Source: Brachionus manjavacas (lineage: Eukaryota > Rotifera > Eurotatoria > Ploima > Brachionidae). From it: 64,000 nucleotides of DNA. This document shows positions 6,729 to 62,604 of the stretch, in pieces; the stretch's first letter is position 1; each line of letters opens with the position of its first letter. The notes beneath the pieces are model-generated. The model was given only the letters and a program-made list of their open reading frames with translations, was not told where the DNA came from and did no database searches. The translations under genes were made by a program, and so were the position numbers. The DNA is taken from NCBI GenBank assembly GCA_019054805.1, contig JAHQIY010000002.1, positions 2,790,001 through 2,854,000 of the forward strand. The letters run 5' to 3'.

Positions 6729-7495
6729 ATGAACAAAGTTTTCTTGTTCGGATTTTTTGTATCCTTAACAATCGCATTTTCTTATGCAAAAGTATTTTTA
6801 CTTAGTTTTTAATTTTTTAAAATTTAAACAATATTTAAAGTATTTGGAAAAGCGATCTCTACATGCTCTCGGAAACCACCAATTCATAAAAAAATCAGGT
6901 AAAATTTTTTAAAACGAATAATAGAAAATTTAAATATTACAAAATCAAAGGTAAAATATATGGACTAAATAAGAGAGGCTTTGACTCACTTGGCGATAAT
7001 CAATTTATAAAACGTGGTGACCACGAATCTTATTTTAATATAATGGATTTTTTAAGTCAAAATAGAAATCATAAAAGAGGCTTTGATTCACTTGGTGATA
7101 ACCAATTCATTAAACGTAATGATGAATATTCTAGTGAAACAGGTCCTTTAGATGAATTATATGAATTATTGGAACAGAATGAAAAGCAAAAGAGAGGATT
7201 TGATTCTCTCGGCGATAACCAATTCATTAAACGTAATGATGAATATTCTAGTGAAACAGGTCCTTTAAATGAATTTTATGAATTATTGGAACAGAATGAA
7301 AAGCAAAAGAGAGGATTTGATTCTCTCGGCGATAACCAATTTATTAAACGCAGTGACCAGCAACTAAATTTTTACTTAAAATTATTGAAAATTTTAGAAA
7401 AAAACAAACATTTAAAAAGAAGTTTTGACTCATTAGGAGATCATCAATTCATCAAAAGATCGAATGAAGAAGTTCCTTCATCGGAAAATATGTGA
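6729..7495 (+). CDS. Neuropeptide precursor with six GFDSLGDNQFI-type repeats
   Basis: Three exons (6729-6791, 6841-6898, 6951-7495) give 221 residues. Exon 1 is a signal peptide (MNKVFLFGFFVSLTIAFSYA). Dibasic sites then release one SLHALGNHQFI, four GFDSLGDNQFI and one SFDSLGDHQFI. Each is preceded by KR and followed by KR or KK, and none has a C-terminal Gly, so the peptides should not be amidated. Spacers are acidic (NDEYSSETGP type). Two adjacent units are a near-exact 117-bp tandem duplication (from 7115 and from 7232). The FDS(L/I)G core and free C-terminus recall the pedal peptide/orcokinin family; this assignment is inference. AATAAA is at 7582-7587. Exon 2 holds the most diverged peptide, so the duplications occurred inside exon 3. 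Confidence 0.88.
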
Positions 7496-8819: not shown

Positions 8820-10470
8820 TTGGAAATTGATGTAATTTTACGGAAATTTACGATTACAAAATTGCATAAATTTGAGGAATTTCCTCTTTTTAATCATTTC
8901 AATTGAATTTAAATCGGGAGATTTTGGAGTAAATTTAACCTCCTGGATTAGATTTTACTTGAGTTGAATATGAAGGAGAGACTTCAATCTGATATTAGAA
9001 TCAGATGAAGAAGAATAACCAATGGGTTATTCGACTATAGTAGTATCATTAGCCGCCAATTGCTGGGATCTGAATTTGTCAAACTTGTCTTTGAATGCAT
9101 TTGTTGATTTTGCAGAAACTACAGTGTCCGGTAGCTCGTTCCATAACGAAGCTACTCTGTTCGTGAAGAAGTTTTCTCTAGGTTTTGACAAGCAAAGTTG
9201 CTTCCTGAGTCTTGGTTTTTTACGTAGATTCATCGATGAGTGATTGATTTTAGGAGTTTGGCTTGAATCTGCGAAGGCATGCAGGTGAACAGTGCTCTGT
9301 TTACTGACAATTTTGAATAGTTGGATTGCATCACCTCTTTTCCTTCTACTTTCAAGCGTAGGGATACCAATTTTTGCTAATCTTGAGAAATAATTGAGAT
9401 TTCTGAGACCAGGCACTAGTTTGGTAGCTCTACATTGGACCTTTTCCAGCCTTTTAATGTCTTTCTTTTGCAAAGGATTCCAGGCTGCTGTACAGTATTC
9501 AAGATGTGGTCTTACAAACGCAGTGAAGAGTCTTCTAAAGTTGTCCGTTGTCCAAAATTTAAAGGCATTTTTGAGTTGAGCAAGGACTCCATTAGCCATC
9601 TGGATTGCCTTGTCTATCTGCTCAGTCCATTTAAGCTTATTATTTATCATGATACCTAAATCTCGTTCCACAGACGTCTGTTCTAATACATGACTGTGTG
9701 AAGCATCTATTTTCATGGTGAAAGGTATTTGAAGGGTGCCTTTTGATCCAAATCGCATAATTTTACATTTCTTTTGGTTAAACTTCATATGCCAAGTGTC
9801 AGCCCAATTAACTATATTGTCAATATCTTCTTGAGCAAGTTTCAGGTCAAGCGAATTACGTATTGTGGAGATAAGTTTACTGTCGTCAGCAAAAAGTTTA
9901 CAAGTATTTCGTACTGATTCAGGCATGTCATTTATGAAAATGATAAAGAGCAACGGTCCAAGGACCGATCCTTGAGGCACACCACTAAGGACCTTTAGCC
10001 ATTTTGAGCTAGATTTACCAACAGTTACTCTTTGCGTTCTATTTGTTAGAAAATCTTTGAGCCAATTAAGAATTTTACCTGAAAAGCCATAGCATTCAAG
10101 TTTGGTCAGCAGTAAGTCGTGTACCACACTGTCGAAAGCCTTGGCAAAGTCAAGGAACACAACTAATGCTTGAAAACCGAGTTAACTTTAAAAATTTTAA
10201 ATTTTTTTGATAATGAGTTTTTTTGTAAATTTTTTCCCATTTGATTAAATAAATGCTGATGTTATGTAAGCTTTATGTTTTGAATCATTATCTTGATAAA
10301 TAATTATTAAAAATTTCTGATTAAGATTAAATTAAAAGATTTTTTAGAATTATATTATAAATAATATTGAAAAATCAATAAATTGCTTGAAGCTTAAGTT
10401 TTCTACTTTCTTTGCCTTTATTAACGAAAAAATTACGTGATTTTACGTAAATTTACGTAATTTGATTTAA
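8820..10470 (-). pseudogene. Tc1-like transposase relic split by a LINE insertion
   Basis: On the minus strand, 10261-10294 reads QDNDSKHKAYI, matching the QDNDPKH signature of Tc1 transposases. Further down, about 8880-8945 reads TPKSPDLNSIEMI, matching the SPDLNPIE catalytic segment (E of the DDE triad). Between them lies the LINE fragment at about 8960-10175, so the retrotransposon landed inside this gene. Outer ends near 10432-10465 and 8825-8860 both hold TTTACG-rich words in opposite orientation, which may be remnants of the terminal inverted repeats. Both halves contain stops. Confidence 0.6.
8960..10175 (-). mobile_element. 5'-truncated non-LTR retrotransposon (reverse transcriptase, CR1/jockey-like)
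   Basis: An open frame runs on the minus strand from about 10175 to a stop at 9027 (about 380 residues). It enters the reverse transcriptase at motif A (DFAKAFDSVVH), followed by the SGVPQGSVLGPLLFIIFIND block and the FADD catalytic box, then the thumb (FVRPHLEYCTAAWNP, LEKVQCRATKLV). It ends with the typical C-terminal module (FFTNRVASLWNELPDTVV). The endonuclease and first RT blocks are missing, as expected for 5' truncation. The frame is intact, so the insertion is fairly recent. It sits in a Tc1-like relic. No microsatellite tail could be seen at its 3' side. Confidence 0.88.
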
Positions 10471-19197: not shown

Positions 19198-21160
19198 TGT
19201 TTGGAAAACCTAATTTGCCAAAAATTAAATGAATATATGCTTTACTTTTTAGTTCTTCTAATCAAAATTTTATTTTATTATTTTATTGGATTCCGAAAAT
19301 TCGAATGAATAAAGTAAGATTTATTACTGTTCGATTTAAAGAAAGCCAAATTAAAATTTTTTTATTTTTTTTATTTTGAATCTTTATTAGAATAAAAAAG
19401 ACCACAGTCCCTCTTTTGTCTTTTGTTATTTGATAGAGGATTAGAACTTTTAAACTTTAGTTCTAAAATTTGAATATCGGCTTTATTCTATCAGAATACA
19501 CTCCTTGAGATCCTCATGTTGAAGAATTGGCTTACATACCAATCTTAAGAACAACAAGTAAGTTTAAAACAAATATTAATTAATTTAGAACATGCTGAAT
19601 AATTTTATCCAAATTTTTGAACATCAAAAAAAAATTGTGTAATTTATTTCCATAATTTTATAGATTCAAATTTACCTTTGAAACACTATTTCTTTTTTTT
19701 AATTTTAAGTATGGATATATTTATGAATAAATTTTTTTGATGAATTATTAATAAATTAATTAATGTATCATTTGAACATATAATGAATAATAAAAAACTG
19801 TTAAATTTATTTACATAATTTTATCTAAAATTAATTCCTTCATCAAAAAATGTCAGCTATGATTAATATTTTCAATATTTATAATATTCAAATTTTATTC
19901 TCGGTTTTGTGTATTTTAAAAACAATTTATACAAACTTTTGAAAGACTAAAACATTGCTAATTATCTGGATAAAACCGGACTTAGCGCGAAAGTGTAGCG
20001 ATTATTATTATTTTTCTAATAACTTTGGAAAATTGAATTTCTCATTATAAATTTTCTAAACTTACTAATTATTTATAGATATTAAGATTTTTTCTAAATT
20101 TTTTCCATCAAATTTAAAAGCTTCATTTGAAAGAATTCCATGATGTTTACTTTACCAAATTATCAGAAACCCAAAAAAAAATTAAAAATTTCAAAAATAA
20201 AATTCAATAAATTGAAATTAGTAATGAAGGGGTAGATACTGGTTTTCTTAAGAGTTCTGGTAAAATTGTATTTATTCGTTGGATATCAGATTAAAGGATG
20301 CGGGAAAATTTTACTTAATATTATTTATTAATTTTATTTATTGAGAATAAGTCGGCATTTTCAACTAATTTTTATTCTTATAGATGTGTTAATGAAGAAT
20401 ATATAAGAAATTCTGCTAATTACTTAATTTTTTCATATTTTTTGGCCAGTCAAAGTTTGAACCTATTATAGAAGGTGGGGTTTGCGTCTTGTGGTAGAAA
20501 AGTCACTGCAAATTTTTTATCTTATGCTTAAGAAAAATGCTTCTAGTATAAGAATATTTATTTATTTTAGGCATATTTCATTTAGCATCAAAAGAAGTTA
20601 AAGTTTTTGAAGCCACTCCGCTGCCGAAATTGATCAATTTGGCTTTCAGAAATTTTTAAAGATATAGTAAGAAAAAATTTCATCTTATTTTTGTTGACTA
20701 AAGGGTGAACACTGATATAATCGTAATCAGATTGAGTATTGGTAAGACCTTTTTTAAAATTAAAATTTTCATGAAAAAAAAATTTAGAAATTGTTTGATA
20801 GTTTTATTGTTTAAACTAAATGGTTTCTTTCGTTAATTTTTATAAACAGACAAAGAAAAAAAAAATATAAAATCACATTTAAAATTCCAATATATTATTT
20901 ATTTGAATAAAAATTAAATCAAGAAGAAATTATAATTTATTAAGTATTTATAAATGTAAATTATACCGGAGAAAAAATAATTTCAAAAAATATGCCCGAA
21001 TTATTGATTTTAGAATCATTATTTCAATATATATACATGTATTTAAATACAAATCCTACATAAAAATTCAAGTCTACACTACTTTATATTCAAGCTCTAG
21101 ACTATACATATTTAGCATTTTTCTGATTTATAAGAATGAATATTCCATTATTGATCTAAT
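19198..21160. other. Intergenic region upstream of the APP-like gene
   Basis: No complete gene. A patch at about 20450-20660 (+) looks weakly coding: FGQSKFEPIIEGGV before 20510, and SKEVKVFEATPLPKLINLAF ending at a stop near 20660. The two parts are in different frames and no family was recognised. The rest is A/T-rich. Confidence 0.4.
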
Positions 21161-22132
21161 ATGAGTGCTGCACTGATTTTGTTTTATCTTTTTCAAACAA
21201 CTTTTGTTCTGAGTCAAAATTATGTGACCTTTGTTGGTGGCAAAAATCCAAATTCAGACCACGATGCCTATGTGGTACAAGCGAATTGTTCGAATGAGAT
21301 TACTTCTCTTTACTTTGACAATCAGATGAACAAATGGACATTTTCATCTGCAGATCCATGTCTCCGTTCGCTAAATGATATACTTTCTTATTGCCAGCGA
21401 GTTTATCCAAAGTTAAACGTTATAAATATACAATTGGTATCTGAAAAGATTGGTTTCAAAATTTGTGACTCAACATCATGTTCAGCAGTAGAGCATGGAG
21501 CGTTATTTAAATGTCTCTATGGAGCATTTAAATCTAAAACGCAATTACAAGTCCCTGTTAACTGCCAGTTTGAACATTTGGTCAGAAAAAGCGAATGCAA
21601 AACAACAGAAATTTGGGAATATTTGGCAAACCAAAAATGTCAATCAGTCAAGAAGATTTTTTATGTGACAAACTATTCAATGATACAATGGTGCGATGCA
21701 TTTAAAGATGGTATCGGAACTTTCAATGGAATTGAATTTATATGCTGCCCAAAAAAAATAAAAAACCTTCGCATCGAGGATGAAAATATTGACAATGAGC
21801 AATTTGCCACAAACTATTACCCTGATGACGTGGAACTGCCGGAATCCAACAGTCTTCTTTACAATGTTAAATTAATAGATAAACCAAAAAATGATGAAAA
21901 ATTCAATTTAATAGGTTATGCAACAGCATTTTTTCTCATTGGGTTTTTTATGACCGTTTTTGTTTTTATTTTTTATCGAGTTTTTAAGAAAAACCGAAAC
22001 AGAGATATTTTGAGACCAAGACTTGGTCAACATATTGACAAAAATCAAGATTCTCAACTAGATCAGATGCAAATAAATGGATATGAGAACCCAACATACA
22101 AATTTTTTGACGATCAAAATTTATCTCTTTGA
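21161..22132 (+). CDS. APP: Short APP-family type I membrane protein lacking the E2 domain
   Basis: A single exon encodes 323 residues. A signal peptide (about 1-18) is followed by an E1 region. The growth-factor-like part has SADPCLRSLNDILSYCQRVY. The copper-binding-like part has FKCLYGAFKS, a CQFEHL...C...W pattern and FNGIEFICCP. After only about 50 acidic residues comes one membrane helix (about 250-273), then a basic stop-transfer stretch and a cytoplasmic tail with GYENPTYKFF (307-316), the APP NPxY sorting and adaptor-binding motif. Known APP relatives carry a large helical E2 domain between E1 and the membrane; here there is no room for it. The three histidines that bind copper in human APP between the Cys pair are T, I and E here. 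The gene has no introns although its neighbours have many, which could mean retrocopy origin. AATAAA lies at 22186-22191. Confidence 0.88.
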   Translation: MSAALILFYLFQTTFVLSQNYVTFVGGKNPNSDHDAYVVQANCSNEITSLYFDNQMNKWTFSSADPCLRSLNDILSYCQRVYPKLNVINIQLVSEKIGFKICDSTSCSAVEHGALFKCLYGAFKSKTQLQVPVNCQFEHLVRKSECKTTEIWEYLANQKCQSVKKIFYVTNYSMIQWCDAFKDGIGTFNGIEFICCPKKIKNLRIEDENIDNEQFATNYYPDDVELPESNSLLYNVKLIDKPKNDEKFNLIGYATAFFLIGFFMTVFVFIFYRVFKKNRNRDILRPRLGQHIDKNQDSQLDQMQINGYENPTYKFFDDQNLSL

Positions 22133-22812: not shown

Positions 22813-25277
22813 AGGTGCCCCAAATGATAAACCGTAGTTAGTCAAAAAGCTTTAAATATTAAAAAAAAACTCATTTTAGGGTTTTTCATGATGAAAAATT
22901 TGAATATTTCAAAAAAAAAACGATGGGTAAGCTTATATTTTTGAGCTGGAGGGGGTCCTTTTTTCAAGGATTTTCGCCAGTTTTTCGGATCGACATGTAC
23001 CATAATTTTTTTTTTTAGCTTTTTCTGAAAATTTACATCAAATTACACTAGAAAAATAATTTTTTTTAATAGAAATAAGTTTTTTGAGTAATTGATTGAT
23101 GAAAAAAGAAAAAAAAATCGAAATTTTGCAATTTTGGTCTTTAAAATCTATTCAGACTAGGCGACACTTATGCTAAGCCGAAATTTTTTTTAATTTTAAT
23201 TCTTTGACCAATTTGAAACAAAAGTCAGCTTTTTTTCTCTTTGTTTGTTTAAAATTTCAGTTATAAAACGCGCTAAACAAAACCATATTTTTAACGTTTA
23301 AATTTTTTATTAAGTATTTTTGACATTTTTCATAGAAAATAATTAAAATACATCAAAACTAATTTTCATTATTTAATTTTGTATTAAAATCTTTATTTTT
23401 TTATGGGTTTGAGGGCAACTCCTAGATTTAGCCCCGAATAATTTCGTTAAAACTTCTTGATAACTTGAGTCATTATTATAGTCATTATTATATTACACAT
23501 ATTTAATGTGACCCAAAATCTATTCCAAAGTTTTACATTTAACTTTTTATATTTAAAAAGTCTTAATCCATCTTTAATAAGATCTAAAAGCTTACGAAAA
23601 TCTTGATCATTGTTTTTTCTAACATATGATTTTAAGTAACACCATAGGCCTTCAATTGGGTTTAACTCACAGTGGTATTTAGGACAAAATAACACTTTAA
23701 AGTCATAATCAGGAGCCAGTTTCTGAAGATGTGTATTCTCGTTATTAAAAGCTTGATGTTCTTGCAGTTTTTCCTCAGCTCATCCAATGTCATATCACTA
23801 GATTTAATTCTCATCGATTAATCCAAGTTCTTTACATATATTAATTAAACCTTTTTAATTTCCATTTTCATCTCGGCAAGATAGACTTAATGATAAATTA
23901 AAAAAAATATTCGTTTAACTTAAATTAAAATTACATTTTTTCTTGATCACCTTCCATCCATTTAATTTCGTCATAAATGCAATTAGTACCTGGAAATTTA
24001 TTAAACATTCTTATATCGTAGATTTTTGCCGAATGAGTTCTCGCGTTGTCGACAATCAACTCAACTTGATAGTTTAAAAACTATCGTTTAAAGCTCATCA
24101 AAATAAAGAGTCTTTTGAATTGTTTGAAAATTAGATCATTATCAAAGTACATGTCTTTTTTAGGCTCAATCCATGCATTGGCTGATCAGGGCAAATAGTT
24201 CACAAAGCCATGATCATCTTCTAATTCTGGAAATTTTCCAACTGCTTCATCATACTCTTCTTGATTAAGTTCAAAAGCATCTGTTTGATCATGACACACC
24301 ATAAAAAACGATACCATAAAACTACGACCTTTGCCTTTGTTATAAAATGGAGCCTTTTCCGGAAAAGACCATTTAAATTTTGAAATTTCACCAGAACGAA
24401 AAATAGACTCGTCATGACAAATAAGAATTTTTTGTTTTCTCATTGGTTTTATCCATGAATATTCACCGTTTTCTTTTTTTGGAATATAAAAATAATCTTT
24501 TGAATCGAGTAAATAAGTGATAAATTCTTTCCGATTTTTAAAAACGTCCTCGCGTTCATGGCCTTCAAAATATGGTCGATTAGTATTACTGTATCATTTT
24601 AGCTTCCCATTTTAACAAATCTGCTCGGCAACTTTCTTCTGTTCTTACCAACTCGTCTTGATCAATTTCGACCTCTGGATACAGTTCTCTAAATCTTCTG
24701 TCGTTGAAATTAGCCAAACTTTGAAGATTAAAAACACATTGTTTTAAAGAAGCTTGTGACAGACAAAATGCTCTGGCCTCTTTTTCCAACTCCGGAAACT
24801 TTTCATAAAAAGTAATTCTTTTATAGGACCCACGCTTGTCTCTTAATACTACACACAAATCATCCTCATCGATTATTATCAAGCCCATTCATGACATCTC
24901 CGGATTCCAATTAGTCGTAAAATTGCTAATATTTCTCTTGTAGATTCAAAACTAACGTTTAATAATCGTAAAACTAAATAAAAAATCACACAAAATATTC
25001 AGATATAAATTGAATTCCAAATGCCTAGGCTATCAATTAGTATTGAATTTAAGTTCGCTATATTGTTCCAATTAAACTTTTTTAAAAACATTGAATTCTT
25101 ACCAAAAATAATAAGAATATTAGCAAATTTATGTTGTCTTTTTCAAAAAAACTCAAAGTTCTATATAAAAACTAACTAGAAATTTGAATTCAGCATAAAA
25201 AATTACTCTATGTTTCAAATTTAAAATAATTCTTAAAATTTATTTGGCTAAACTACGGTTTATCATTTGGGGCACCT
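22813..25277 (-). mobile_element. IS630/Tc1/mariner-superfamily transposon with perfect 27-bp inverted ends
   Basis: The terminal inverted repeats at 22813-22839 and 25251-25277 are identical over 27 bp (start AGGTGCCCCAAATGATAAAC). Both ends are flanked by TA (22811-22812 and 25278-25279), the target duplication of this superfamily. The element is 2465 bp and carries one decayed transposase on the minus strand. The ends are intact while the gene is broken, so it could be mobilised only in trans. Confidence 0.9.
23447..24888 (-). pseudogene. Broken DDE transposase (IS630/Tc1/mariner superfamily)
   Basis: The minus strand contains the parts of one transposase in order. The N-terminal segment (24888-24589) ends AKMIQ at a stop. 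A frame change follows, giving NRPYFEGHERED. Next comes ICHDESIF (first D) with GKGRSFMVSFFMV, stopping at a TGA near 24198. After that comes VELIVDNARTHS (second D) around 24030-24062, further stops, and finally LFCPKYHCELNPIEGLWCYL (catalytic E) to a stop at 23447. All three catalytic residues remain visible, but at least one frame change and several stops separate them. It is the only gene of the element at 22813-25277. Confidence 0.85.
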
Positions 25278-28622: not shown

Positions 28623-30690
28623 ATGGACGGATCGGGCGCTGATTCGAAACCCACTGCCAATAATCTATCATTTGGCCCCACATGGTTTGATTTTTTTTCC
28701 AAATAAAATATTTTCTTATCTCTTTTTCTTTAAATTTAAAGGTTAAAACAATTTGCCAACCCCGATGGTCAACGAAATCTCGAGCCAGATGGCTTGACTT
28801 TTCAGATGGCAAAGCATCGATATGGACGCGAGGAGATCTTGGCTATTTACAATGCCATTGAGAAAAAACTCCTCTCCAAATCAATGCCAAAGGAGTTAGC
28901 CGACTTTGAAGGTTTTTTTCAAAAACAATTACAGAAACCAATCTTGCTATCTGTTCCAACTACTGAAGAACAGGTTTATAAATTCTTAAAATTTGATTTA
29001 AAATTTTTGAAATTTTTTTTATTTATTAAAGAAATTGATGTCGAGTTGCGTGAATAGTCAAGCTGCCTTGAATGCGTTTAACAAAGCCAAGGGAGCCTCT
29101 TCAGCGGGCAATCGAAGTTCGGAAAGCAAAAAAAATTCCAGAGATGCAAAAGCAAGCAGCAACAAAGGGTCAACTCAAAGCGGAGCTCGCGGTCGCGACA
29201 AAGAACAAAAATCCAAAAAAAATTCAAAAGAATGGCGGAATAACAAAGAGTGGTCTGGAAGCAAAAAATCTAACGATGACAGCTTTAAAAATCGCGCTAA
29301 TGACAACAAGGAATCTCAGCCGGAATGGTTTAATGACGAAGAAATTGAAAAAAAAGATCTCAATGAATCCAAAACGATGACTTTTGATGAAAATGGAAAG
29401 TTTATCATTCAGGACGAATCTGATCAGGACTCGAATGGTAAAACTGAAGCAAACAATGACAGCTTAGGCTCTAGGAGTGTTCGTGATCCGGACGAGAGCG
29501 AATATGATGATCTTGCTTCCAAAATGACTGATATCTTAATAAATGAGACCGAAGATAATTCCGAGATAAATGAGCTCAATCAACAGTTTCAACAGGCCCA
29601 AGCCCAGCTGATGGTCAACAGACTTCAATCAGCGGATTTTTCGGTCAACGATAAATGGTTCTATCTTGACTCGCACAGCAAAACTCAAGGACCTTTCAGC
29701 TCAGAACAGATGGCTAATTGGTTGGCGTCGGGCTATTTTAGCATGAATTTGATGGTAAAACGCGGATGCGATGATAAATTTGTACCTCTAGGATTAATTG
29801 TTCAAAATCTAAATCAAATGAGAGTGCAACAAAATAGCGGCTCATTTAAGACATCTCCAAGCCAGACTAAAATTCATAATTTACCACAAAATTTTGGCAA
29901 ACCAAGCTCAGAGTTTAATGACTCGAATTTAAGCCACATCATTCAGCAATTACAACAAATTCAAGTTCAACAGAAGGCTGCAGTCGCTTCATTGAATACC
30001 CTAGGTGTAAATGCAGTGGCTTCTATTTTGCAAGAGTTGAGAAACAAACAAGAACATTTGATCAGCCAAATAAACATCACCAAACAAAATAGCCCCATTA
30101 TAAACAACATCTTGCAGCAAAGTTTGAATTTGAACACCGGATGGGTAGGCCAAGGACCAGGATCTTTGTCGAATCACCAGCTAGGTGCTGCGGCCAATCC
30201 TTTGAAAGAAAAAATATTGGCTTTGATGGAAATCAAGCGAAAAGAGGAAGAGAAACGACGCATGATCGAAGAAGAGATAAGGTTGAAGCAAGAGGAAGAA
30301 AAGAGACGATTAATGGAAGAAGCTAGGATAAAACAATTGATTATCATGTCCAAATTGGCCAGACAGCAAAATTTAAACATAAACCAAAATCTTCCAAATT
30401 ATCTTGAACAACAAGCATTGGAAAAAAAGATGCTGATGGAACAGATTAAATTGAAGGAAATGTTAAATGCTCAACAAAATGGAATGAACAACGCTATGGG
30501 ATATTATTCTGGTCAACAGTTTTCCTCTTTTAGTAATGATCAATCATTTACGGATTTGTTAAGAAAAGAAAACGAATTCCAGAATGATCAGGGAAAACAA
30601 AATTCAGTCAAATTCTCGGATGATATTGCCGCTCTATCGGCCAAACAAGGATTTTTTGTGCCAAAAAATGACCAAATCATCGAGAGCTAG
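28623..30690 (+). CDS. GIGYF: GIGYF-family protein, short paralogue (GYF domain, 4EHP partner)
   Basis: Exons 28623-28684, 28742-28973 and 29032-30690 give 650 residues. Features in order: FGPTW near the start; the 4EHP-binding segment KHRYGREEILAIY; a KEW...KEW basic stretch; the DDX6-binding-type pair QPEWF...MTFDENGKF (about 197-222); a GYF domain (about 307-352, WFYLDSHSKTQGPFSSEQM through GYFSMNLMVKRGCDDKFVPLG); Gln-rich helices; and a charged coiled coil. Known GIGYFs recruit 4EHP and DDX6 to repress translation. The first two intron positions and phases match the longer paralogue at 42529-48131. This copy has neither the Gly/Arg-rich block nor the conserved C-terminal region, and stops after KQGFFVPKNDQIIES. 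AATAAA is at 30755-30760. A functional paralogue or a truncated one are both possible; the frame is clean. Confidence 0.9.
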
Positions 30691-45500: not shown

Positions 45501-48131
45501 TATCTACTATTTCTTGTCCTTGGATCTAATGAATGTTTATTTGGGGAAAAACTTACAGTTCCAATTTTTTTTGCTCTTCTTTTTGTTTTTTAAGCTCTTC
45601 TGCTTTTTTTCTGTCCTCTTCTTTCTTTTTTTTTATTTCTTCATTGCGTTTTTTTTCCTCTTCTTGAAGTTTGATTATTTCTAGTAGTTTTTTCTTTTGT
45701 TGTTCTTTTCTCATCTCTTCACGTACTCGGTCCTCGTCGGCTCGTTTGGCAGCTTCTTCTTGCTGCTGTCTAAACTTTGCTTCTTCTTGCCTTCGTCTTT
45801 CCTCCTCCTCCAACTTAAACTTCATCTGTTGCTCTTTCTCCAATTTTCTCCTCTTTTCCTCTTCCATTTTAGTTATTTCGAACAAAGCCTGAATTTTGTC
45901 CTTTATCGGATGAGATTCCGTATTGGAATTTATCTGATGATGACCAAGCATCATATTTGCCTGGCTCATTAGCGGGTTCAAATGACCCAGTGTGTTGGTG
46001 TTTCCTTGTATCAAGTGGTTCATGGGCGAAATGGATGACGGAGGAGTCGGATTCAAATTAGGACTAATTCTAGCTTGTTGCTCTTTCCAAACAGACTGGT
46101 TGGGCAGTGCAGCATCTAAGATAGCCGGGTCCAGCCCGGTAAAAACTTCGCCTTGTTTTGATTTCAAATTCAAATTGCACTGATTTATCAAGGCTTCTTG
46201 CTTTTTGCGTAGTTCATTTAAATTGCTTAAGACACCATTTACTCCTAGAGTTGCCAGAGATGCCACCACCGCTTTTTGCTGAAGCTGAATCTGCTGTATT
46301 TGCTGAATAATATTGTTCAAGTTGGTCGTATTTTGGCCGGCCTTTTGCTGACTGGCTATGTATGCTTGTAGCAGGTGGTAATTTTGAGGTAAAAACTGGG
46401 TTTGCTGAAACATTTGAATTTGTTCATGCGACCATTGCTGTGAGCTTGAAGGGGCTTGTGTGGGGATGGTTTTAGATGGCGAGGAGAATGGCATTCGGCC
46501 GAGATTTTGGCTCAAAACACCCAATGGCACAAATTTTTCGTCACAGCCTCGTTTGACCATCAAATTCATGCTAAAATAGCCTGCAGTGAGCCAGCCCGCC
46601 ATCTGTTCCGAGCTAAACGAGCCTTGTATTTGATTCTGAGGATCCAAATAAAACCAACGCTCTGCTTCCGGGTGATCCATTGACACTGACACTAGCTTAG
46701 GATCAGCACTTTGCACAATACTATTCGGCAAAGTCAACAAGTTTGCTTGATTCTGTTTTTGTTCATTAGCATCACCATTTGGTGCTTCGTTGATGACGGC
46801 CTGAGTCATCTTTTCGGCCAATTCGTCCGCGTCCTTGTTATTTAAATCGTTGACTTTGTTATTTACTTTTTGTGCTTCGACCGGCCTATTTTCTTTGTCC
46901 TCTGTCATTTCTTTTTCTTTTTTTTCTTCTTTGACCGGCACAAATTTTCCACTTTCGTCAAATGTCATTCTTTTTTGCATTTCGTCCGGATTGGTTTTTT
47001 GCATCTCGTCATCATCGTCCATCAGCCATTCGGGATGTGGTTCACACTTTTCATAGGTTTTATTTTTGGTGTCAGACTTTCTAAAACTCGACCATTCTTT
47101 GCCATTTCTCCACTCTTTCTTACTTTTATTGTCACTTTTCAAATCAGTTGACGAACCGGAATTTGCCGCGGCATTTTCCGACTCGCACGCTTCTTTTTCG
47201 TCTGGCGTCAGGTCTTTCTCGTCGATTTCTTCGGTTTCCGATATGGACGCCTTGCTTCTCCAATTTTCATCAGCCATTGCTCTTGAGTAGTCTTTTTTGG
47301 GGCCTGCTTCGCGTTCCTCCCAGTTGGCAGAGCGATTATACGATCCCCGGCTGTATCCACCTCGGCCTCCGCCTCTAGTGGAACTGCTGACTGGTATCGG
47401 GTTGCCGTCCTCGTCTAGCGCAGGAGGCTTACCCGCATGACTGTGAGCATCGCTTCCTCCGCGACCCCTGCCTCTACCACGACCACCAGCGCCCCTCTCC
47501 CCTCCGTAAGGGCCGCGGCCCGCTTGACCGCCAGAATTTGCCCCGCGGCCTCCGCGACCTGCGCCGCCTCTGGACGGGCCTGTTTCGCCGCCCCGACCTC
47601 CACTTCCTGGCGGGCCACCTTGAAGCTTACTGTAAGCCACCAGAGCCGCAGCGCTGTTTACACAAGTTGATAAATATTTCTTAATAAATGATAAAATGAA
47701 ATAAATTTTTTTCTTTAATTTTTATTAAAATTCCAAGTACTTGTTCTTCTTGACTAGGCTGAGACAAAAGAACCGGTCTTTGCAGGTCTTTTTTGAGTAA
47801 GTCTTCGAATTCTGCAAAAAGAGCATTAGATGGTGGTTGATCGAATAAAACTTTTTCAATTGCTTCATAAATAGCGAGCATTTCTTCGCGGCCATAGCGA
47901 TGCTTGGCTAATTGAAAAGTGAGACCGGGTGACGGTGGCAAAACAGACATTTTTGTGCTGTCACCACTCGACAGTTGTCTTAACCTGCTCAAAAACACGT
48001 CATCAATTAGTTTTAAACAAGGGATAAAAAAAAAGAAAGCAAATTTACCAAGCTGGACCAAATGTGAGTCCACCAGTGTCGGCTGTCTTAGTCGAGGATA
48101 TTTTTATTAATTCACTATTAGATCCTTCCAT
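42529..48131 (-). CDS. GIGYF: GIGYF-family protein, full-length (GYF domain, RGG box)
   Basis: Six exons on the minus strand (48131-48049, 47984-47741, 47679-45557, 43878-43127, 43081-42942, 42723-42529) give about 1178 residues. Order of features: FGPAW; the 4EHP-binding segment KHRYGREEMLAIY (about 55-67); an RGG box (about 130-188); the DDX6-type motif HPEWL...MTFDESGKF (about 325-355); the GYF domain (about 450-496, WFYLDPQNQIQGSFSSEQM to FVPLG), which binds PPGL-type proline motifs; Gln-rich helices; a long charged coiled coil; and the conserved C-terminal helices (IPTFVNFLREIETCAEIEDYV). It ends with SQLLGFTVQPDPSLKNRGDI, equivalent to the LLGFSV-type end of vertebrate GIGYFs. It should repress translation and trigger mRNA decay with 4EHP. 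The 1678-nt intron at 43879-45556 is exceptional here; an extra exon inside it cannot be excluded. Confidence 0.93.
43879..45556 (-). other. Unusually long intron of the long GIGYF gene
   Basis: At 1678 nt this intron is about thirty times the local norm. It is A/T-rich, with a (TAAA)n microsatellite at about 44696-44718 and no recognisable exon or nested gene. Phase joins correctly across it (CT|A). Confidence 0.6.
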
Positions 48132-57340: not shown

Positions 57341-58698
57341 TTAGTTCCTCGCAGAAGGCTGTCTTACTTCGCTTCTACTTGAATTTCTGCTTGAATTAAT
57401 TCTTTCTTTTTTTTGTTCCTCGTCATTATTTTCATCAGTTTCTCTTGCACTTTTCTTTTGATCATTTTTGCTGCTTCTGTTAGTCACATGTCCTTCTTTT
57501 TGATTCTCTTCTGGATTTTCATTAGACTCATTTTTGTTGCTTCTATTAGTCACATGTCCTTCTTTTTGATTCTCTTCTGGATTTTCATTAGACTCATTTT
57601 TGTTGCTTCTATTAGTCACATGTCCTTCTTTTTGATTCTCTTCTGAATTTTCATTAGACTCATTTTTGTTGCTTCTTACTGATCTGGCACTGTTCAATTG
57701 ACTTCTAGCTGTCTTTTGCGAATTTTCCCCTTCTGTTTCTTCCAAATGCTTTTAAACTAAATAGAACTAAAATATTTCTTTTGTATTAAATTTTACATTT
57801 AATTCAAGTTTTAGGCTTTCTTGTTCTTTGTTTTCAACCTAATGAAAATAAAAATTAAACTAAATTAAAAACTTATTACAAAATAATTCCAAAAATACCT
57901 CGTTGCTAGTCAAAGTTTCAACTGGAGGGGGATCAATATTTTCCTTTAAAAAAATGGTTAGAATAAACGAAAAGAGTTCATTTGAAGTATGTTTGTTAAT
58001 TTAACTTAATTCTTCGATCTTTTTAAACAAAAAAATTAAAGGTAAAACTAAGGAGTGTATATCAAATGAATAAAGAATATAAAATTTTAATGAAACTTAA
58101 TTTTATTTGACTGTATTTTTCTAATTACTTATCCTCTTTATAAAATTCTGTTTTTACTCTCTGTTTTTTTTTCTTTTTTTTCTTTTCATCGTCTTCATGG
58201 CGTTTAAATTGAAATATAATTAAAATAATTATAATTTAACAATTAGTCTAAGAAAAAAGGTAAATTCACTTTTTGAAAATTGAGTTTGAAGTATAAAAAT
58301 TTTATCAATTTTGGCAGGACTAATTTAAAAAAAAAATGTCTAAACTCTTAATTAGTTTTACTCAAAATTAATTACTTTTTAATTCAAACAAAAATTGACG
58401 CAATTAATTAAAAAATTTAAAGAACTAATTCTTACCACTTTTTCAGCAGCCTCATTTTCATTAGATAATCGAGCAGATTGAGCACGATTAACTGGTTCAT
58501 TTTCTTTATTTTTTGCTGACCCAACTCTTGCAGAGCTTAATCTAGAAGGTGCTTTGACTTCCTAGAAAAAAAAGACTTATTCGTAATCAATTCAATTTGC
58601 TCAAGATTAGAAATTTTATCTAACTTGAAAAGCAAATTACATTGTCCACTATATTTTATAAAAAGCTTCACCAAAAAAAGTTAAATTACCTCAGACAT
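57341..58698 (-). CDS. Low-complexity hydrophilic protein with tandem 22-residue repeats
   Basis: Five minus-strand exons (58698-58690, 58561-58436, 57943-57899, 57838-57797, 57748-57341) all join in phase 0 and give 209 residues. No family is recognised. The protein is almost wholly E, N, K, S and R, with no hydrophobic segment, so it is probably disordered. SAR/SARL/SVRS words recur at both ends. The last exon contains three 66-bp tandem repeats (57481-57678) encoding NKNESNENPEENQKEGHVTN units. The 9-nt first exon (ATG TCT GAG) is inferred from the following donor. An additional phase-neutral microexon encoding KKKKKKQR could lie at 58154-58177. It is divergent from the oxidoreductase at 59090, with 391 bp between starts. 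Confidence 0.65.
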
Positions 58699-62067: not shown

Positions 62068-62604
62068 ATGGTAACTTGTCTCTCGTATTCTAACTCTTAT
62101 GGAGAGTATTTTTATTTATTTGCTTGTCCGAATTACTGTTGTGGGACATGTACAAGTAAATACTGCTGCTCTTCATATATTTTTAGTTTAAATCAAACAA
62201 GATGTAACGATTACATAAACGATAATTCTCATTCGAATAAATTCTCACATTTTGTGAATTTTTTTTTCCCTATTTTTGCTTTTTTTTTATTACTTACCTG
62301 CTGTATTATGGTATGCCGTGTTGCATGCAAAAGGAATCAAAGTTCTTCACAAAGCAATCTAAATAGCCACCCTTTAATACATGTTCCAAGTTATTTGATT
62401 AACAAAAAAATTTGTTTTGAGTTTGAATATTTTTTTTTTAAAGTAAATCAAAGAACAGCTAATACAATGAATACACACCATATGCAACAGATTCATGTAA
62501 TAACTCAACCAAATATTGAACTGCCACCTTCATATGAATCATTGTATAACTCAAAATCTGATGTATTAAGAAATCAAAGGACAATAAACATCAATCAAAT
62601 ATAA
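62068..62604 (+). CDS. Small Cys-rich single-pass protein with PPxY motif (Shisa/WBP1-like)
   Basis: The open frame encodes 178 residues. If the 54-nt T-rich stretch at 62390-62443 (GTTATT...TTTTAAAG) is an intron, as its length and pyrimidine tract suggest, the product is 160 residues and stays in frame. The N-terminal Cys cluster FACPNYCCGTCTSKYCCSS has the paired-Cys spacing of Shisa-like and related proteins. One membrane helix follows (FVNFFFPIFAFFLLLTCCIMV), then a polar tail with ELPPSYESL, a PPxY motif for WW-domain ubiquitin ligases. No signal peptide is visible at this ATG, so an upstream exon carrying one is probable. The family assignment is tentative. Confidence 0.6.
   Translation: MVTCLSYSNSYGEYFYLFACPNYCCGTCTSKYCCSSYIFSLNQTRCNDYINDNSHSNKFSHFVNFFFPIFAFFLLLTCCIMVCRVACKRNQSSSQSNLNSHPLIHVPSYLINKKICFEFEYFFFKVNQRTANTMNTHHMQQIHVITQPNIELPPSYESLYNSKSDVLRNQRTININQI

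Follow-up and report, generated by a model that had tools for sequence, protein, structure and literature searches.

Whether a receptor of the APP family can do without its E2 domain is the question raised by a gene in a stretch of 64,000 nucleotides of the Brachionus manjavacas genome (hereafter the window; C2:2790001-2854000 of an assembly of 114,169,980 bases in 61 contigs). The division of labour among E1, E2 and the cytoplasmic tail of APP is disputed, in a family that also takes in APLP1/2, C. elegans APL-1 and Drosophila APPL. E1 and E2 are described as features common to this family in passages from several papers (PMC3660159, PMC3098799, PMC4155875). An earlier note, made from the sequence of the window, had read the gene as a minimal APP with E1, a membrane helix and an NPTY tail and with no E2. 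Pfam, phmmer and hydropathy analyses agree with that reading and resolve the gene into the following features:

21161..22132 (+): APP-family coding sequence without E2, single exon, 323 amino acids (open reading frame, Pfam, genome search)
21161..21217 (+): probable signal peptide, residues 1-19 (hydrophobic N-terminus judged by eye)
21278..21556 (+): growth-factor-like domain (GFLD) of E1, APP_N, residues 40-132 (Pfam; 6 cysteines)
21560..21751 (+): copper-binding-domain (CuBD) fold of E1, APP_Cu_bd, residues 134-197 (Pfam; 6 cysteines)
21752..21907 (+): linker of about 52 residues at the expected place of E2 (APP_E2 unmatched in the protein)
21908..21985 (+): transmembrane helix, about residues 250-275 (hydropathy; model pLDDT)
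21986..22129 (+): cytoplasmic tail with NGYENPTYKFF (APP_amyloid at residues 296-317; motif pattern)

The 323 residues are encoded by a single uninterrupted frame without internal stops, which an in-frame TGA (21152-21154) closes just upstream. When the whole window was shuffled 20 times by mononucleotide and read in the three forward frames, stop-free runs reached at most 157 codons, compared with 323 in the APP reading frame. The GC content of the coding sequence is 0.327, against 0.226 in each 1000-base flank, and AATAAA/ATTAAA motifs occur at three places in the 3' flank, beginning 54, 58 and 103 bases from its start. The coding sequence lies in one piece, whereas the matches to presenilin, PEN-2 and nicastrin in the same genome are split, and its lack of introns sets it apart from the human APP gene, which we take to contain them. 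Scans of the window for Rfam families and tRNAs returned no matches. A spliced-leader sequence of bdelloid rotifers was likewise unmatched when up to 2 mismatches were allowed.

To place the protein, we compared it with domain profiles and with known structures. All three Pfam matches were above the family cut-off: APP_N (E 2.4e-11), APP_Cu_bd (E 2.1e-12) and APP_amyloid (E 3e-10), the last covering only positions 31-52 of the 52 in its model. In a phmmer search of the PDB, human APP770 was the best match, with an E-value of 2.6e-21 over two stretches, E1 and the tail; 24 of the 27 distinct sequences found at E <= 1 were APP-family proteins, fragments or APP-containing fusions and the other three were FtsX chains. 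E1 is identical to human APP at 48 of 149 aligned residues. It consists of a GFLD and a CuBD that hold all 12 cysteines of the protein (residues 43, 67, 78, 102, 107 and 118 in the GFLD; 135, 146, 160, 178, 195 and 196 in the CuBD), and each of the 11 human E1 cysteines in the aligned range is paired with a cysteine; C43, which lies outside the alignment, probably corresponds to human C38 by its position. The likeness to human APP thus takes in an E1 with matching cysteines, a single membrane helix and the NGYENPTYKFF tail with its NGYENPTY adaptor motif. The earlier observation that GYENPTYKFF is perfectly kept holds for the motif itself, but the seven residues that follow it, DDQNLSL, differ from what we take to be the human C-terminus.

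Hydropathy, taken in windows of 19 residues, peaks over residues 250-275. Structure prediction, proposed earlier as a check, was run with AlphaFold on the whole single sequence and gave a mean pLDDT of 45.2; the membrane helix was the only confident part (model helix 247-279, block means of 80 and 91 over residues 251-270), while the rest of the model was poor, and the fold of E1 therefore rests on sequence. Hydropathy and the model helix, together with the signal peptide judged by eye, fit a single-pass type I membrane topology.

The protein lacks E2, which sets it apart from human APP. No match to APP_E2 was found in the 323 residues by a Pfam scan at E <= 1. It had been claimed that E1 ends at about residue 200 and the helix begins near 250, leaving no room for E2; the measured boundaries bear this out, with E1 ending in the CCP of residues 195-197, the membrane helix starting at about residue 250 and only about 52 residues between them (net charge -5 over residues 199-249). 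The Pfam model of E2 has 190 positions, and E2 therefore cannot sit inside this reading frame. The gap could in principle be an assembly artefact, in which a true gene with E2 lost a segment in frame near 21760-21900. The linker does hold the start of a weak short direct repeat (D4, 20 nt, 80%; copies at 21783 and 22029), but this is the only direct-repeat pair that starts there and its partner copy falls in the tail region. Moreover, the reading frame is open across the junction, E2 is matched above the cut-off nowhere in the 61 contigs, and the APP gene is found only once among them, all of which makes such a loss highly improbable.

We then asked whether the genome holds a second APP gene with E2, as the earlier note had proposed to check, and found none in the assembly. 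The whole protein matched one place. APP_N gave a single match at E <= 10, above the cut-off, and APP_Cu_bd and APP_amyloid gave two matches each, of which one was above the cut-off; in all three cases the match above the cut-off was the APP gene, and the others (L007 for APP_Cu_bd, L005 for APP_amyloid) fell below it. A degenerate DNA pattern for NGYENPTY likewise occurred at one place in the genome, the codons at 22076-22099, and its reversed control at none. The assembly yielded no APP-family gene other than the one at 21161-22132 (+). These results bear on a further explanation, that the gene is an intronless, E2-less retrocopy or truncated paralogue and that a full-length APP gene was missed. 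Its coding sequence in one frame, beside presenilin, PEN-2 and nicastrin matches split into pieces, would suit such an origin, but the three profiles (above their cut-offs), the protein search and the tail pattern each lead to this gene alone, and we regard a missed parental gene as quite improbable. A retrocopy may instead have replaced its parental gene, which could explain the missing introns while leaving the architecture unchanged.

E2 itself was not found above the cut-off by a profile search of the 114,169,980 bases. One match below it was returned, at C3:4599287 (E 0.152 genome-wide). Scanned singly, the frame at this place (181 residues) matched APP_E2 with an E-value of 0.0023 and a score of 18.1 bits, short of the 22.2 set as cut-off. 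In all, 12 families matched this frame at E <= 0.5, every one below its cut-off and SlyX better than APP_E2, and a frame with an endonuclease/exonuclease domain above the cut-off lies nearby on the same strand. We rejected the match as an E2 on these grounds; the simplest account of it is a coiled coil from a retroelement. An E2 elsewhere in the genome, too divergent or too broken up by introns for the Pfam model, has several points in its favour besides this match: introns break matches up, the synapomorphy counts in part of one study (PMC3660159) make E2 the most variable region of APP, and the search was controlled with 14 non-animal genomes (of which only Bacillus subtilis matched, below the cut-off) and no animal positive control. 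However, the same method recovered other intron-split genes, and the continuous APP reading frame itself has no room for a hidden E2; we consider this explanation unlikely. Searches for relatives of the protein with a single-protein query, which reaches close relatives only, confirmed none of 22 matching stretches in a collection of genome contigs and not the one stretch that matched the pattern in a collection of viral contigs, neither collection being of animals.

We also looked in the same genome for genes of the APP pathway. Profile searches gave matches above the cut-off for all four gamma-secretase subunits: presenilin (three of four matches), nicastrin (two of two), Aph-1 (two of two, overlapping) and PEN-2 (two of two). 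The long Aph-1 match reads through nine stop codons and one of the presenilin matches through one, which we take to be introns. PTB domains were matched ten times, always above the cut-off, and the frames of two of them were compared with the PDB. In one frame (L018), all seven matches at E <= 0.001 were Fe65-family chains or fusions that contain such a chain. The other (L014) matched 55 PDB sequences, with the Mint/X11 PTB-PDZ as the best (E 1.2e-85) and other PDZ proteins next. Judged by these matches, genes for the four gamma-secretase subunits, an Fe65-like adaptor and a Mint-like adaptor are present. Shedding and gamma-secretase cleavage of the protein, and binding of Fe65 and Mint to its tail, are predictions that agree with the presence of these genes.

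The earlier note had also proposed that the gene separates the roles of E1 and the tail from E2-mediated dimerisation and heparin binding. This is partly supported, since E2 is gone but several other sites that are present in human APP differ as well. At the positions of human K99, R100, R102 and K103, which we take to form the heparin loop of the GFLD, the E1 alignment shows D, a gap, S and T, and a basic heparin loop is not found. Copper ligands are given as H147, H151 and Y168 in the CuBD and H108 and H110 in the GFLD in the relevant part of one paper (PMC5281630). Here, H147 is replaced by T, H151 by E and H108 by V, while Y168, M170 and H110 are kept; the CuBD triad of ligands thus reads T, E, Y. 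The chain 2m05 ('Beta-amyloid-like protein'), presumably nematode APL-1 and compared over the CuBD only, carries Y and K in place of the two histidines. The loss of H147 and H151 is therefore not special to this APP, and it is not a firm defining feature. When the alignment of the tail is extended without gaps, the phosphorylated threonine (T743 of APP770 and known as T668, in the numbering that we assume) probably faces a lysine, K294. A Thr site conserved across APL-1, APPL and vertebrates is described in part of one paper (PMC3098799). By contrast, the edge strand of E1 that contacts contactins, as reported in part of a further study (PMC8808184), is partly kept: S124, L127, V129, P130 and E183 are identical in the two proteins, with changes at A126 (T) and L128 (Q) and one inserted residue. 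Given the changes in copper ligands, heparin loop and probably tail threonine, function may have drifted, and the gene is, as aligned, not a clean deletion of E2. The changed ligand residues might also be expected of a non-functional relic drifting towards loss. Such a relic would hardly retain the 12 cysteines of E1, the NGYENPTYKFF tail or 323 open codons amid flanks of 22.6% GC, and we find this extremely improbable.

We propose, with good confidence, that the gene encodes a single-copy, E2-less APP receptor that works through E1 and its tail, as the best explanation of these observations. The protein would be a pared-down type I membrane protein in which a short acidic linker joins E1 to a membrane helix and a YENPTY tail. 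E1 would most likely be the ligand-binding head, with Slit or contactin-type partners as the best candidates, although these are guesses carried over from mammals and birds. The ectodomain would probably be shed within the linker and the remaining stub cut by gamma-secretase, and the tail would recruit Fe65-like and Mint-like PTB adaptors and the endocytic machinery. Functions that depend on E2, namely E2 dimers and the binding of heparan sulphate and metals by E2, would be absent or supplied by other proteins. E2 was presumably lost rather than primitively absent. An artificial construct offers a parallel: mammalian APP without E2, which retains E1 and the tail, still bound Slit2, and Slit2 was co-precipitated with E2-less but not with E1-less APP, according to the part of the study that describes these experiments (PMC5534435). 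According to the same source, binding of Slit to APP promoted shedding and the recruitment of Fe65/Pak1 (PMC5534435).

In the literature searched, much of it covered in extracts, we found no report of an E2-less APP or of a rotifer APP, and one may exist in print. The closest precedent in these texts for E2 reduction is cAPPL of the crab Chasmagnathus, reported to be missing the stretch between E1 and E2 and also the N-terminal part of E2 (PMC2940927). That sequence is a partial cDNA in which the rest of E2 is still there, and its authors add an alternative cause in the same passage (PMC2940927). Placozoan and tardigrade APP homologues are divergent invertebrate members like this one, but are said in the text available to lack the YENPTY motif that is kept here (PMC11405698).

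An animal genome in which the one detectable APP has no E2 would offer a natural test of whether signalling by the tail requires E2 dimerisation and the binding of heparan sulphate and metals; with a single copy, the redundancy that hampers work in mice does not arise. In C. elegans, the extracellular part is by itself enough for viability (PMC3098799, PMC4155875), whereas in mice on an APLP2-null background the tyrosine of YENPTY is essential (PMC3098799), both as stated in sections of these papers; thus, the important part differs between animals. An APP that keeps E1 and the tail and lacks E2 bears on which part matters in which animal. We speculate, nearly evenly divided and leaning slightly against, that one animal lineage with a single APP that has lost both E2 and the E1 residues that bind heparin and copper points to an ancestral indispensable core in which a protein-binding E1 head is coupled to Fe65/Mint signalling and needs no heparan sulphate, metals or E2 dimers.

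In addition, we observed several other features in the window. Fragments of a DDE_3-type transposase, both below the family cut-off, lie at 23450-24443 (-), starting about 1.3 kb beyond the APP reading frame on its 3' side, and a reverse transcriptase reading frame (RVT_1) lies at 9027-10160 (-). Two GYF-domain genes of opposite orientation, 29035-30690 (+) and 45553-47640 (-), stand about 15 kb apart; by eye they resemble each other near the GYF domain and may stem from a local duplication. The N-terminal part of the second falls within the block 46001-48000, with a GC content of 0.457 compared with 0.21-0.34 in the remaining 2-kb blocks. A reading frame with a Shisa_N domain occupies 62068-62604 (+), and another at 57341-57745 (-) consists mostly of repeated NRSNKNESNENPEENQKEGHVT-like units. 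Finally, the reading frame at 7043-7495 (+), which had no Pfam match at E <= 0.001, resembles a neuropeptide precursor: it holds four near-identical units flanked by KR, three of FDSLGDNQFI and one of FDSLGDHQFI, similar to what we take to be the orcokinin-like FDSIG peptides.
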